A stretch of 36,216 nucleotides of DNA from Nitrococcus sp. (GTDB lineage Bacteria > Pseudomonadota > Gammaproteobacteria > Nitrococcales > Nitrococcaceae). Shown here piece by piece: positions 9,019 through 28,008 of the stretch. The position numbers and the translations under genes are program-made. Within the stretch, counting starts at the first letter, position 1. Each line of letters begins with the position of its first letter. The notes under the pieces were generated by a model, which had not been told where the DNA came from, did not search any database, and saw nothing but the letters and a program-made list of their open reading frames with translations. The stretch is from the NCBI GenBank assembly GCA_030452265.1, contig JAKDMQ010000008.1, positions 1 through 36,216 of the forward strand. Direction: 5' to 3'.

Positions 9019-9591
9019 TCAGACAAAAAGCTCCGCAACTTGAACCTTGAAATCGGGCAGGGATTTCACCGAGATGCGGGTCGAAAGCGGCGGGGTGCGC
9101 CGGATGGTATAGATACCGTCGACCGGTTCTTCATAGATTTCGAGGGCGTTATTTTTGAGGTCGAGCAGCCAAACGACTTCGACGGCGTGTCGAGCGTAAA
9201 GCGGGATTTTGACCTCGCGGTCAAATTGCAGGGAGCTGTCGGCGACTTCGACCAGGAGCAATACGTCGGTGGGTCCGGGCATCACGGAGGCGTAGGAGTC
9301 ATCGCGATGGCGCAGGATCGTCAGGTCGGGTTGTGGCTCGGAGAACTCACCGAGTCGTAGCGGGTTTTGAACGCTGATTACGACCTGGCTTGCGAGCTGC
9401 CTATAAAAAAGAGAGCTCAAATAATTGACGTGGCCAGCATGTCGGGTCCCGATGGGACTCATTTCGATGATTTCTCCCTCGATCAACTCTACGCGATCAT
9501 CCTCGGCAAAGATGCCGGCTCGGCCCATCTGGTGGTAACCGTGAACCGAAAATCGATGGCGCTTAGGTTTTGCGGACATCACTGTTGTCAT
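9019..9591 (-). CDS. Uma2 family (DUF820) putative restriction-endonuclease-fold protein
   Basis: RVELIEGEIIEMSPIGTRHAGHVNYL...EPQPDLTILR...LLLVEVADSSLQFDREVKIPLYARHAVEVVWLLDLKNNALEIY. Confidence 0.92.
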   Translation of the reverse strand: MTTVMSAKPKRHRFSVHGYHQMGRAGIFAEDDRVELIEGEIIEMSPIGTRHAGHVNYLSSLFYRQLASQVVISVQNPLRLGEFSEPQPDLTILRHRDDSYASVMPGPTDVLLLVEVADSSLQFDREVKIPLYARHAVEVVWLLDLKNNALEIYEEPVDGIYTIRRTPPLSTRISVKSLPDFKVQVAELFV

Positions 9592-12315: not shown

Positions 12316-13836
12316 TCAATCCGCCGTATTGAAGATCCCGCTAAGGCTCATGGCATCCTCGCTGCGCTCATATCGCTGCCTGGCGGCGTCGCAACGCAAA
12401 GCCTCAAGCGCGCGAAGATAGTCGGGAGTCACGTCACCCGTGACGTATTCGCCGGAAAAACAAGAGCAGTCGAAACGCTCGATCCTGTCGTTACCCTCGC
12501 GCACCGCCTCGATGAGATCGGACAAGTCCTGGTAAATCAGGTGATCCGCGCCGATGGCATGGCAGATCTCCGGCTCAGTACGTGCATGGGCGATGAGCTC
12601 CTTAGCGGCCGGCATATCGATGCCGTAGACGTTGGGATAACGCACGGGGGGCGCCGCCGAGGCGAAATAGACCTTGTTCGCGCCAACGTCACGGGCCATC
12701 TGCACGATCTGGCGCGAGGTGGTGCCACGAACGATGGAGTCGTCGACCAGCAGCACATTCTTGTTGCGAAACTCGAGCTCGATGGCGTTGAGTTTCTGGC
12801 GCACCGAGCGCTGCCGCTCGGTCTGGCCCGGCATGATGAAGGTGCGGCCGATATAGCGATTCTTGATGAAGCCCTCGCGATAGGTTACACCCAATTCGTT
12901 GGCGAGATCCAAGGCGACCGTGCGGCTGGTATCGGGGATGGGAATAACGACGTCAATATCATGGCTCGCCCACTCGCGGGCGATTTTGCGGGCAAGCATG
13001 CGGCCCATTCTAAGCCGCGATTTGTACACGGAGACGTCGTCGATCATGGAGTCGGGGCGCGCGAGATAGACGAACTCAAAGATGCAAGGGGTGAGGACCG
13101 CGTTCGTGGTGCATTGCCGGGTGTAAAGCCGTCCACTCAAGTCGATGAACACGGCCTCACCCGGCGCCACATCGCGCACTAGCTGAAAACCGAGCACATC
13201 GAGCGCCACGCTCTCGGAGGCGATCATGTACTCGCTGCCAGCCTCGGTGTCCCGCTTTCCGAAACACAGCGGGCGGATGCCATAGGGGTCACGAAAGCCG
13301 AGCACGCCATAGCCGTTGATCATGGCTACGGCGGCATAGGCGCCGAATACACGGCGGTTAATGCCGGCAACGGCCATGAAGATGTCGTTCTCATCGATTC
13401 TGAGCTTGCGCAGCTCAGCAAGCTCATGGGCAAGGATGTTCAGCAGCACCTCGGAGTCGGATGCCGTATTGATGTGGCGCAAATCCTCCAGGTAGAGCTC
13501 GCGCTTTATCTCCTCGGCATTGGTCAGATTGCCGTTGTGAGCGAGGCTGATACCGTACGGCGAGTTCACATAGAAAGGCTGTGCCTCGGCCCGGCTGGAG
13601 CAGCCGGCCGTAGGGTAGCGCACGTGGCCGATGCCGACATTGCCCTGCAACTGCAACATGTCCTCGGCACGAAATACATCCCGCACCAGGCCGCTGCGCT
13701 TGCGTAGATACAAGCGCCCGTTGTCATAGGTCATGATGCCGGCGGCATCCTGACCTCGATGCTGAAGCACCGTGAGCCCGTCGTAGAGTGCTTGATTGAC
13801 GGGACCCTGGGCCACCATGCCGATCACACCGCACAT
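12316..13836 (-). CDS. purF: Amidophosphoribosyltransferase
   Basis: MCGVIGMV (catalytic Cys), [37 protein letters not shown] motif. Confidence 0.97.
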
Positions 13837-13905: not shown

Positions 13906-14472
13906 TCATCGCTCGGGAGCCTGGCAGTACTCGCCCCAGTACTCGCGCAACGGGGTACCGGTAACCGGCTCACTCGCGGCCGCGACCGGGCTATAGAGGC
14001 GCAAATCCTGCAGCCACTGACCTGCCCCCAGGGAACACACCCAAGGCCGAAAATGCGCCGCCAGCACGGAGTCCTGCCACCAACGCTCACGAGGTACGCT
14101 GGTGAGCCCCGCCATGAGCACCAACAACGCCACGACCAGCACGCCGCGAAGACCGCCGAATACCATCCCGAGAACCCGATCCGTTCCGCGAAGCCCCGTC
14201 TTGCCCACCAGTGTACCCGCAAGATAGTTCACGAGTGCGCCCAGCAGCAAAACAGCGATGAACAAAGCGGCGAAAGCAACCAGCAAGCGAAGCGTAGGCG
14301 ATTGGAGGTAGTCGTTCAGGAAAACCGCGAGTGGGGGCGCAAATCGCAGGCTGATCCAGAATGCGGCGACCCAGACCACGATGGATAGTACCTCGCGGAT
14401 GAATCCCCGCATTAGGCTGATGGCCGCGGAAACCGCGATAACACCGAGAAAAACGTAATCTAACCAGTTCAT
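13906..14472 (-). CDS. cvpA: CvpA family protein
   Basis: MNWLDYVFLGVIAVSAAISLMRGFIREVLSIVVWVAAFWI; adjacent to purF. Confidence 0.94.
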   Translation of the reverse strand: MNWLDYVFLGVIAVSAAISLMRGFIREVLSIVVWVAAFWISLRFAPPLAVFLNDYLQSPTLRLLVAFAALFIAVLLLGALVNYLAGTLVGKTGLRGTDRVLGMVFGGLRGVLVVALLVLMAGLTSVPRERWWQDSVLAAHFRPWVCSLGAGQWLQDLRLYSPVAAASEPVTGTPLREYWGEYCQAPER

Positions 14473-14514
14473 GCGTAGTGCCGTGCGATTAGGAGACGGG
14501 GTCGGTATTGCACG

Positions 14515-15261
14515 TCAACATTGCAGCCGGGCATGGTTCGGATCCGCCCCTGCCCGCAACAGAGCCCGGACCAGGTCGAGGTGTCCATTTTGCACGGCCA
14601 GCAGCAGTGGAAAATTGCGATCCAGACGATTCACCAGATTGGGATTTGCCCCTGCCTGCAGTAGGGCCTGCACCGCCTCTACGTGCCCATTTTGTACCGC
14701 CAGCAGCAACGGAAAGTTGCCGTTGTTGAGTTTTACTACGTTTGGGATTGCTCCCGCCCGCAGTAAAGCGCGGATCGCCTCTGCGTGCCCATTACGCGCG
14801 GCCAATAACAGCGGGAAATTACCGCTCTGGCCTTTCACCTGGTTTGGGTTGGCCCCGGCCTGTAATAAGGTTTGAACTGCGTCTGCGTGCCCCGCCTGTG
14901 CGGCCATCAGCAGCGGGAAGTTACCATCCCTAGGATTCACCTGACCCGGATCAGCTCCTGCGTGCAGTAGCGCTTTGACCACGTCCGCGTGACCGTTCTG
15001 GGCGGCCAGCAGTAGAGCGAAAACCCCGCTTTGCGGATTTTCCTGGCCAGGACTCGCCCCTGCCCGCAGTAAGGCTTGGACCGCATCCGCGCGACCATTC
15101 CGTGCGGCCAGCAGCAACGGAAATGCTCCGCTCTGGGGTGCGATCTGATTCGGATCCACTCCTGCCTGCAATAGCGCTTGAACTGCGCCCGCGTGCCCAT
15201 TTCGGGCGGCTAAGAGCAGCGGGAAAGCCCCGCTCTGGGGATTTTCCTGGTTCGGATTCAC
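14515..15261 (-). CDS. Ankyrin-repeat-only protein, 248 aa, about 7 repeats with 34-aa period
   Basis: Seven tandem copies of [GN]xFPLLLAAxNGHxxAVxALLxAGAxPNxxxxxx; exact 102-bp period (e.g. 14999, 15101, 15203); GTG start with GGAGG 5 nt upstream (15267-15271). Confidence 0.88.
   Translation of the reverse strand: MNPNQENPQSGAFPLLLAARNGHAGAVQALLQAGVDPNQIAPQSGAFPLLLAARNGRADAVQALLRAGASPGQENPQSGVFALLLAAQNGHADVVKALLHAGADPGQVNPRDGNFPLLMAAQAGHADAVQTLLQAGANPNQVKGQSGNFPLLLAARNGHAEAIRALLRAGAIPNVVKLNNGNFPLLLAVQNGHVEAVQALLQAGANPNLVNRLDRNFPLLLAVQNGHLDLVRALLRAGADPNHARLQC
14515..15261. repeat. 102-bp tandem repeat array coding for the ankyrin repeats
   Basis: Phase anchors of GNGCGGC spaced exactly 102 bp. 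Confidence 0.8.
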
Positions 15262-15414
15262 CTCTGCCTCCGGTGATAGGCGTAGCGGCTCGAGATCATC
15301 GCGGCATCAGCGCGAAGTCAGCGTGTGATGATGGGACCGTAACGGGAACGCGTCTTGCCATTACGCATCTCTGATTCGATTGCAGTCATTATGATCATTC
15401 TAGATTTAATTTAG

Positions 15415-15482
15415 CCACCGAAACACACCGACAACACGGAATTCAAGAATCTCTTTTTCAGTGTCTTTCGTGCTTTCCGTGG
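15415..15482. repeat. Imperfect long inverted repeat (about 27-bp arms), CCACGAAA-type
   Basis: Arm 1 CCACCGAAACACACCGACAACACGGAA (15415-15441); arm 2 TTTCAGTGTCTTTCGTGCTTTCCGTGG (15456-15482). Confidence 0.75.
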
Positions 15483-15583
15483 TTGACATTCTCGAGAGGC
15501 TTGTCTCGGCTGCCCATTGCTCAGTTGATTCCAGTGTCTCGCAATCAGGCCGATCCAGAGCGGGAGAGCTTGATGCAGCCGGC

Positions 15584-16222
15584 TTATTTCTCCACCACCA
15601 GCCCTTTTATGCCATGCTCCTCATGCAGTCGGGTGGCGAGTCGCTCGGCTTCGCCACGGCCGGCGACGGGGCCGACACGCACCCGAAAGAGCGTTTTGTG
15701 CTCGTATGGCGCTTGCTCGATGTAGGTGTTGAAGCCACCCTCGGCGAGTTTTTGCCGTAAAGCCTGGGCATTATCCCGATTCTGGAAACTGCCGACTTGC
15801 ACCGCCCACGCCAAAGTCGCTGCCGCACCGGCGGAGGCTTTGGATTCATTTTCGACGCCAGCGCGCTCGCCTACCGCAGCGGCAGACTCGGGCCGCGCTG
15901 ACGATTGCGAAGTCGAAGCGGGGCGCCTGGGCTCATCGGCTGGCACTGGCGATGACTCCAGCGCCCCGCTAGCAGAATTTGGCCGCGCTGCGCTTACCGG
16001 CGGCGGGCGCTCGGCAAGCTGGTGGCCGGGAGCGGGCTCCTCGAGCACATCGGCTTTGGGAATGTGAGGCACCGGTGCCACCCGCGGGCGTGGCGGAATC
16101 TCAACCGGGATCCCGGGGCGGTCGCGATCGACGGGGCCTTTCAGCAACATGGGGATGAAGATCACCCCCAGCGCGACCAGGATCACCGCACCAACCAGCC
16201 GTTGCTTGGCTCGCTGCTCCAC
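15584..16222 (-). CDS. dedD: SPOR domain cell-division protein DedD
   Basis: KQRLVGAVILVALGVIFIPMLLKGP TM segment; C-terminal SPOR WAVQVGSFQNRDNAQALRQKLAEGGFNTYIE; between folC and cvpA. Confidence 0.9.
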   Translation of the reverse strand: MEQRAKQRLVGAVILVALGVIFIPMLLKGPVDRDRPGIPVEIPPRPRVAPVPHIPKADVLEEPAPGHQLAERPPPVSAARPNSASGALESSPVPADEPRRPASTSQSSARPESAAAVGERAGVENESKASAGAAATLAWAVQVGSFQNRDNAQALRQKLAEGGFNTYIEQAPYEHKTLFRVRVGPVAGRGEAERLATRLHEEHGIKGLVVEK

Positions 16223-16308: not shown

Positions 16309-17580
16309 TCACCCAGGACAGCCTAACTCGCGCATAACCTGCGCAATCACGCGGAAGGAGCCGAAAGCTACGATACAGTCATTTATGCCGGACTCGCCGC
16401 GCACCCTGGCTACCACCTCAGCGGCTGGTCCAAGCGCGGCGATCCGTGCATCACGTGCCCGCAGGCTATCCGCGACGCTCGTCGCCGCCAGCGCATCAGC
16501 GTCGGCCAAGTCAAGCAAATACCACTGATCCACTATGGCGAGCAAGGGCGTGGCGATGCCGTCGAGATCCTTGCGCCGCAACAACCCGAACACGCAGCGC
16601 AGCTCGCCCGGCCGCGGCCGCGAATGCAGCAGCGCCGCCAGACGCGCCGCCGCCGCGGCGTTGTGCGCAACATCCAACAGCCAATCCGGCGGACCGACAA
16701 CCCATTGGGCGCGCCCCGGCAGTCGGACTCCAGGCAGTGCACGGTACGCGGCACTCGCTAAACGCGCGGCCGGCTCGCCGAGCGCCTCCAGACCCGCCAG
16801 GGCAGCGGCCGCATTGGTTAGTTGATGTTGACCCGCCAAGCCCGGCAACGGCAATCCAGGCAAGTGAGCGCCGCGCCCGCGCCACCACCAATGCCCAGCT
16901 CCGCTCCCCGGCCCAAAGTCGAAGTCCCGCCCCAGGCGGCGCGCATCACTTCCAAGCCGCGCCGCATAGCCCGTCACCGAGCACGGCATATCCACGGAGC
17001 CGAGTATCACCGGGCGCCCCGAACGCATTATGGGAGCTTTCTCCCGGCCGATGCTGTCCCGGTCATGGCCGAGCCAATCGGTGTGGTCAAGCTCGACGTT
17101 CGTCAGCACGGCCACATTTGCCGACAGGATATTGACCGCATCCAGGCGTCCACCCATGCCGACTTCGAGCAGCCAGATATCGCATTTGGCTGCTCGAAAA
17201 ATGTAGAACGCGGCCAAGGTGCCGAATTCGAAGTAGGTCAGCGAGATATCCGCGCGCGCCTGATCCACGGCCGCGAAGGCCTCAACGATGGCCTCATCCG
17301 CCGCCTCGCGGCCGCCGATGCGAATCCGCTCGTTGTAGCGCTGTAAATGCGGTGAGGTATAGGCGCCCGGATGGTAACCCAATGCCTGTAGCATGGCATC
17401 CAGGTAGGCAACGGTAGAACCCTTGCCGTTGGTGCCGCCGACGGTAATGACCTGGGCACCGCAGCGGTCCACGCCCAAGCGCTTAGCAACCGCTGCCACG
17501 CGCTCGAGCCCCAGGTCGATCACGCGCGGGTGCAGCCCTTCCTGCCAACGCAGCCACTCTCCCAGGGTGGAGAAGCGCAT
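16309..17580 (-). CDS. folC: Bifunctional folylpolyglutamate/dihydrofolate synthase
   Basis: VGGTNGKGSTVAYLDAML, SPHLQRYNERIRI, LEVGMGGRLDAVN, DHTDWLG. Confidence 0.96.
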   Translation of the reverse strand: MRFSTLGEWLRWQEGLHPRVIDLGLERVAAVAKRLGVDRCGAQVITVGGTNGKGSTVAYLDAMLQALGYHPGAYTSPHLQRYNERIRIGGREAADEAIVEAFAAVDQARADISLTYFEFGTLAAFYIFRAAKCDIWLLEVGMGGRLDAVNILSANVAVLTNVELDHTDWLGHDRDSIGREKAPIMRSGRPVILGSVDMPCSVTGYAARLGSDARRLGRDFDFGPGSGAGHWWWRGRGAHLPGLPLPGLAGQHQLTNAAAALAGLEALGEPAARLASAAYRALPGVRLPGRAQWVVGPPDWLLDVAHNAAAAARLAALLHSRPRPGELRCVFGLLRRKDLDGIATPLLAIVDQWYLLDLADADALAATSVADSLRARDARIAALGPAAEVVARVRGESGINDCIVAFGSFRVIAQVMRELGCPG

Positions 17581-22173: not shown

Positions 22174-22740
22174 TCATGCCCACAGCTCGGACAAGCGAAT
22201 ATCGATGGCGTCGAAGGGCGCTACCGATACCATGTCATCGTCGCGAAAAACACCCAAGGGCCGCCAGCTTCCATCGGCAAGCGCATAGGCTTCCAAAGTG
22301 TAGGCTTTTGGATCCACGAGCCAGGCAAACTTGACGCCGTAATGCGCATACATCGGTGCCTTCTCCTCGCGATCAGTACTCTTCGTTGATGGGGAGACAA
22401 TTTCACATACCCAATCCGGTACTATCGAGATCTTGTGCCCTTGTGGAGGTGAAGGCATGCGTTCCTTGCGCCAACCGGCGATATCTGGCACCAGCACGGC
22501 CCGATCCAAAACAAAATGAACCTCCGGCTCATCGATGATCCACCAGCCTCCCGGTCCACCCCGGCCACGTCCGTAGGGCCCCTCGATATCCGCTCCCAGC
22601 CGCGAGGAAGCAAGTATATGCGCCCATCCGGGCCTGGGCTGGGTGCGCAATTGGCCATTGATGATCTCACCCGTTAGTCCTTCCGGCAGTGCCAGCAACT
22701 GCTGGTAAAGTGAAGGCTTTTTTGATGCATTTGGATGCAT
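22174..22740 (-). CDS. Uma2 family (DUF820) protein, second copy
   Basis: EIINGQLRTQPRPGWAH...VLVPDIAGWRKERMP...PDWVCEIVSPSTKSTDREEKAPMYAHYGVKFAWLVDPKAYTLEAY. Confidence 0.92.
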   Translation of the reverse strand: MHPNASKKPSLYQQLLALPEGLTGEIINGQLRTQPRPGWAHILASSRLGADIEGPYGRGRGGPGGWWIIDEPEVHFVLDRAVLVPDIAGWRKERMPSPPQGHKISIVPDWVCEIVSPSTKSTDREEKAPMYAHYGVKFAWLVDPKAYTLEAYALADGSWRPLGVFRDDDMVSVAPFDAIDIRLSELWA

Positions 22741-27936: not shown

Positions 27937-27973
27937 CCCGCGCGCTCCTCAGAATTCGTTGGCCATCAAAGTC

Positions 27974-28008
27974 TCCTCACTCCTCACTCCTCACTCCTCA
28001 CTCCTCAC
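27974..28008. repeat. Heptanucleotide tandem repeat (TCCTCAC)x5 (minus strand GTGAGGA x5)
   Basis: Five perfect consecutive units; includes the glnE stop codon (27998-28000). Confidence 0.97.

Follow-up and report, generated by a model that had tools for sequence, protein, structure and literature searches.

Between dedD and cvpA, in the 36,216-nucleotide stretch of Nitrococcus DNA analysed here (the window), lies ank, a gene whose product is a genuine, intact, ankyrin-only member of the ankyrin-repeat proteins. In the account that we favour, with a probability of about 60%, ank is a transferred accessory module that encodes a cytosolic protein-binding solenoid. A single-gene module, consisting of the ribosome-binding site, the ORF and ~10 nt, would have been acquired horizontally and, along with a spacer of foreign sequence, inserted between dedD and cvpA. 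There, ank would be translated from its own Shine-Dalgarno sequence on the dedD-cvpA-purF transcript, and the product would remain in the cytosol, fold as a seven-repeat ankyrin solenoid and bind, and hence sequester, inhibit or scaffold, a partner, with gain and loss of whole units altering the length of the array.

Such a history would represent a clean and roughly datable movement of an ankyrin-only gene between species of one bacterial genus, in which the gene was kept by selection after landing in a housekeeping operon, in a genus otherwise without a multi-unit ankyrin gene. The general picture of ankyrin proteins is unchanged, and the ank product is a modest case of a binding protein in an accessory role; the two-member family, with its conserved ends and variable repeat number, offers a direct route to seeking the binding partner.

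Architecture of the ank protein

The ank ORF (14515..15261, minus strand) encodes 248 residues, starts with GTG and is preceded, 5 nt upstream, by a GGAGG Shine-Dalgarno sequence (15267..15271, minus strand), which is also present in the orthologue described below. These coordinates and this spacing agree exactly with the intact frame and well-placed ribosome-binding site described in an earlier note, which had been made from the sequence alone. The ankyrin-like array described there was recovered by the Pfam Ank profile (PF00023), which scored 168 bits against a cut-off of 21.1 and matched the protein in seven stretches. A tandem period of 102 bp was detected in the ORF by TRF, and the proposed unit length of 34 residues was exact in all seven copies. 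The FPLL tetrapeptide, which had been assigned to all of the units, is present in six of them, whereas unit 3 carries FALL. The array thus departs from the typical, though not obligatory, 33-residue unit with TPLH. No unrelated Pfam family exceeded its cut-off, in line with the earlier note, in which no effector domain was visible, and NCBIfam and PADLOC returned repeat-level matches only. A dedicated capping repeat was not evident in the protein, and a signal peptide was not apparent on reading its sequence.

Structure modelling, which the earlier note had proposed, gave an ordinary ankyrin solenoid. The AlphaFold2 model (pLDDT 81, pTM 0.77) contains 14 paired helices, predicted to form a stacked helix-turn-helix solenoid, with about 11 residues at the N-terminus (1-11) predicted to be disordered and a short C-terminal helix at 243-247. 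The suggestion that the array begins and ends mid-repeat was not upheld, since seven complete helix-turn-helix units are seen in the model. The structural matches of this prediction, obtained with Foldseek, were DARPins and ankyrins (probability 1.00), and the sequence itself also matches DARPins and ankyrin-1. The ank protein therefore resembles the natural ankyrins and DARPins (PF00023/PF12796) in its helix-turn-helix units, its Pfam score and its model and sequence matches, but differs from them in that all of its units are 34 residues long, FPLL or FALL replaces TPLH, caps are not evident and the surface is nearly uniform.

The extent of this departure was described with a reference set of 379 units from 56 ankyrin proteins, a convenience sample of search hits whose figures are therefore only descriptive. 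FPLL occurred in none of the 379 units, and in no other protein of the set do 34-residue spacings occur more than twice in succession, the reference units being mostly 33 residues long. Since TPLH itself was found in only 33 of the 379 units, the FPLL motif and the 34-residue length do not exclude ank from the ankyrin family. In canonical repeats, the Thr and His residues of TPLH take part in hydrogen bonding (PMC8415598); this pair is absent in ank, and most bacterial reference units also depart from TPLH. In the order-wide search, the pattern FPLLLA[AV][QR]NGH matched only the window genome and one congener, G003. In addition, the units are unusually similar to one another at the binding-surface positions, which normally vary: the identity there is 0.52 and 0.56, compared to 0.22 ± 0.10 in 38 other ankyrin proteins, and the codon divergence between units (pS) is 0.69 and 0.47.

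The dedD-cvpA interval and its insertion

The neighbours of ank are those named in the earlier note: folC (16309..17580; Mur ligase family, Pfam), dedD (15584..16222; SPOR domain, Pfam/NCBIfam profile match), cvpA (13906..14472; Pfam Colicin_V) and purF (12316..13836; TIGR01134 above the cut-off), all on the minus strand. The gene order is folC-dedD-ank-cvpA-purF, with ank on the operon strand. The ank stop lies 42 nt before cvpA, and the 322 nt between dedD and ank make a long gap by the standards of a tight operon. On the ank strand, the scan revealed neither a consensus promoter within the region it covered nor, in the gaps between the genes, any site resembling a terminator, and the Rfam search of the window returned no RNA family. 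Judged from this arrangement, ank appears to be placed for co-transcription with cvpA-purF, and their co-expression is plausible.

Elsewhere in the 36-kb window, two genes of the Uma2 family (putative nucleases) are present, at 9019-9591 and 22174-22740. At 27973-28008 (minus strand), five head-to-tail copies of TGAGGAG lie at the end of a glnE-like gene, before an aminotransferase class IV gene; changes in the number of these units could alter coupling, because each carries a stop codon together with a motif resembling a Shine-Dalgarno sequence.

The dedD-cvpA interval was compared across 27 relatives, drawn from the genus, the family and the order, each of which has both genes at a single locus; none of them has an ankyrin gene at this position (0/27). 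Thus, ank does not belong to the dedD-cvpA-purF operon by positional conservation, and the ORF is not conserved between dedD and cvpA throughout the order, which the earlier note had named as evidence against a recent insertion. In three congeners the two genes are separated by 77-80 bp, a figure that counts the stop codon, against ~1.1 kb in the window.

The boundaries of the inserted DNA can be placed on both sides. After the dedD stop, the native sequence (15538..15583, minus strand) is similar to the intergenic region of the congener G001 (0/1000 shuffles), the first 49 bases counted from the dedD stop matching that region. On the other side, the native cvpA leader (14473..14504, minus strand), of which the last 32 bases match the leader of the congener G002 (shuffle p 0.002), is abutted by the right edge of the stretch similar to G003, the tail of this shared unit after the ank stop codon being 14505..14514 (minus strand). 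Between the native sequence and the Shine-Dalgarno sequence lies a foreign spacer (15272..15537, minus strand), for which none of the other four genomes of the genus has a counterpart (0/4); the GC content of the 322-nt gap that contains it is 52%, versus 62% for the window. The left and right insertion flanks match each other no better than chance when searched for a target-site duplication. The spacer also contains, at 15380-15490 (minus strand), CCACGGAAAGCACGAAAGACACTGAAAA and related short motifs, which we take to resemble a sequence common in other bacteria.

The same interval appears to be disrupted in G002, which by its CvpA and DedD is the closest relative and whose dedD and cvpA lie on different contigs (G002:C635, L092, and G002:C48, L096). 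There, dedD is followed by an opposite-strand gene that reads as sucD-like, and cvpA is preceded by an apparent antitoxin/PIN-type pair and a putative SNF2-type helicase. With separate contigs and unrelated neighbours, the operon looks broken at this position, and the dedD-cvpA interval thus resembles a breakpoint in two lineages. Both genomes that carry ank, the window genome and G003, are fragmented assemblies.

Transfer between species and the likeliest carrier

The search for homologues with the same 34-residue FPLL array, which the earlier note had proposed, yielded one such orthologue, in G003 (G003:C97:32359-33309, JAUILK010000036.1, corresponding to L052:537-1487). Exact peptide patterns, applied to genomes of 84,980 species, matched this orthologue and 39 other ankyrin loci, and the 22 of these loci whose ORFs were read encode generic, mostly 33-residue arrays. 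No further orthologue was found with the order-wide pattern or the class-wide profile sample (369 genomes), and none on viral contigs; the phage and plasmid searches returned nothing but generic ankyrins, none above 43% identity.

The G003 orthologue has nine 34-residue units and shares both the GGAGG-GTG start and the C-terminus, ARLQ[CS], with the window gene, and it sits on a different contig from the intact dedD-cvpA of G003. The DNA similarity between the window and G003 spans the Shine-Dalgarno sequence, the ORF and ~10 bases past the stop, and nothing beyond. The difference in length between the two copies amounts to two whole units, located in the N-terminal half; the last five units pair one to one. 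The possibility raised in the earlier note, that the ORF is a fragment or an assembly remnant, was rejected because the orthologue begins and ends as it does, the difference between them being two complete units within the array.

For the seven matched units, the dS of ank between the window genome and G003 is 0.44, compared to 0.87-1.22 for eleven flanking housekeeping genes of the same genome pair, and the dN/dS is 0.18 (bootstrap 0.11-0.27); both values for ank rest on one pair because there is only one orthologue. The low dS indicates that ank is more recent than the split between the two species, and the two values together point to horizontal transfer and purifying selection, so that we hold it very probable that ank was acquired horizontally and is under selection. 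The interval without an ankyrin gene in the relatives, the different location of the orthologue and the low dS support the earlier note's description of ank as a recently inserted accessory gene on the operon strand.

As for the carrier, insertion-sequence activity is the likeliest. In G003, ank follows the end of an IS5-family element and lies between two inverted IS5-family transposase fragments: the element end and the first fragment occupy L052:1-545, and the second, inverted fragment (L052:1519-1664) abuts an apparently truncated antitoxin-like gene. The left IS end is present, the right fragment is without its outer end, and neither an IS end nor any IS remnant was found at the insertion in the window; the case for IS-mediated movement therefore comes from one other genome. 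Sequences matching this IS are numerous in G003 and occur twelve times in G001, which supports the binning of the G003 ank contig. The arrangement is reminiscent of the passenger genes of insertion sequences (mobile insertion cassettes) in that the G003 gene lies between inverted transposase fragments, but differs from them in that no paired terminal inverted repeats are shown around it and the window bears no IS trace.

Possible roles of the ank product and alternative histories

We lean towards the view that the ank product is a cytosolic binder in an accessory role. No particular binding target is supported by the data, and no toxin or enzyme is genetically linked to ank. DedD, CvpA and PurF are not likely to be the partner, because the orthologue sits elsewhere. 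This location of the orthologue, together with the absence of ank from the operon in all of the other genomes examined, makes it very unlikely that ank is integrated in the function of the operon, for example as a divisome scaffold with DedD or as a regulator of CvpA or PurF, a role with which the shared strand, the 42-nt distance to cvpA and the gaps without a terminator-like site would be compatible. An ancestral gene, translocated in one lineage and lost in the others, is conceivable in that ank is found in genomes of one genus only; the contrast in dS with the eleven flanking genes leaves such vertical inheritance hardly probable at all. It is also quite improbable that ank is a functionless passenger of mobile DNA heading for decay: the IS debris around the G003 copy and the patchy distribution of the gene would fit such a passenger, but the low dN/dS, the intact frame and the Shine-Dalgarno sequence conserved in both genomes disfavour it.

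The most specific rival to an accessory binder is an immunity or self-protection protein, that is, an orphan inhibitor of a toxin or cell-wall enzyme gained without its toxin, and we regard it as unlikely. Small ankyrin-only proteins with such a role are known (PMC4686830, PMC3482391), and the mobility of ank fits an orphan immunity gene. Bd3460 of Bdellovibrio, an exported self-protection ankyrin that binds the endopeptidases Bd3459 and Bd0816 through a 4+2 arrangement of repeats (PMC4686830), resembles the ank product in that both are small bacterial proteins of comparable size, made only of ankyrin repeats; however, neither its export, nor its binding of these enzymes, nor its 4+2 arrangement is seen for ank, whose protein has no apparent signal peptide. 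The Imm-ank proteins of polymorphic toxin systems, with gammaproteobacteria among their carriers (PMC3482391), likewise consist of ankyrin arrays but are recognised by a neighbouring toxin, and no toxin or enzyme gene lies beside ank in either genome, the neighbours in G003 being IS fragments and glycosyltransferase-type genes. The gene for the type VI secretion sheath protein VipB, which makes contact-dependent toxins plausible, is present in the window genome and in four of the five genomes of the genus overall (G000, G001, G002 and G004), but was not found in G003, indicating that ank does not track the sheath gene. The uniform surface of the array is also unlike the usual interface with one target. 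Because this surface is kept alike despite codon divergence, and whole units are gained or lost while the ends are fixed, ank might instead be a periodic binder, a mobile 34-residue FPLL subtype of ankyrin suited to self-assembly or to a ligand that is itself repetitive, be it a filament, a polymer or a repeat protein, a tentative reading that we consider rather improbable. An effector secreted into a eukaryotic host is most improbable. Ankyrin proteins are enriched in host-associated bacteria (PMC3932732), and ank has weak repeat-level matches to models of Dot/Icm ankyrin effectors; these matches, however, are confined to the repeats and lie far under the cut-off (best 74 versus 500 bits), DotI/IcmL had no match in the genus, nor in any control genome, and ank is the only multi-unit ankyrin gene of its genome, unlike the situation in many host-associated lineages.

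In the three congeners that lack ank, a single-stretch match to Ank_2 was observed within a long frame of 738-969 residues (G001:C1:416976-417134, G002:C204:1696-1878 and G004:C19:5497-5655).
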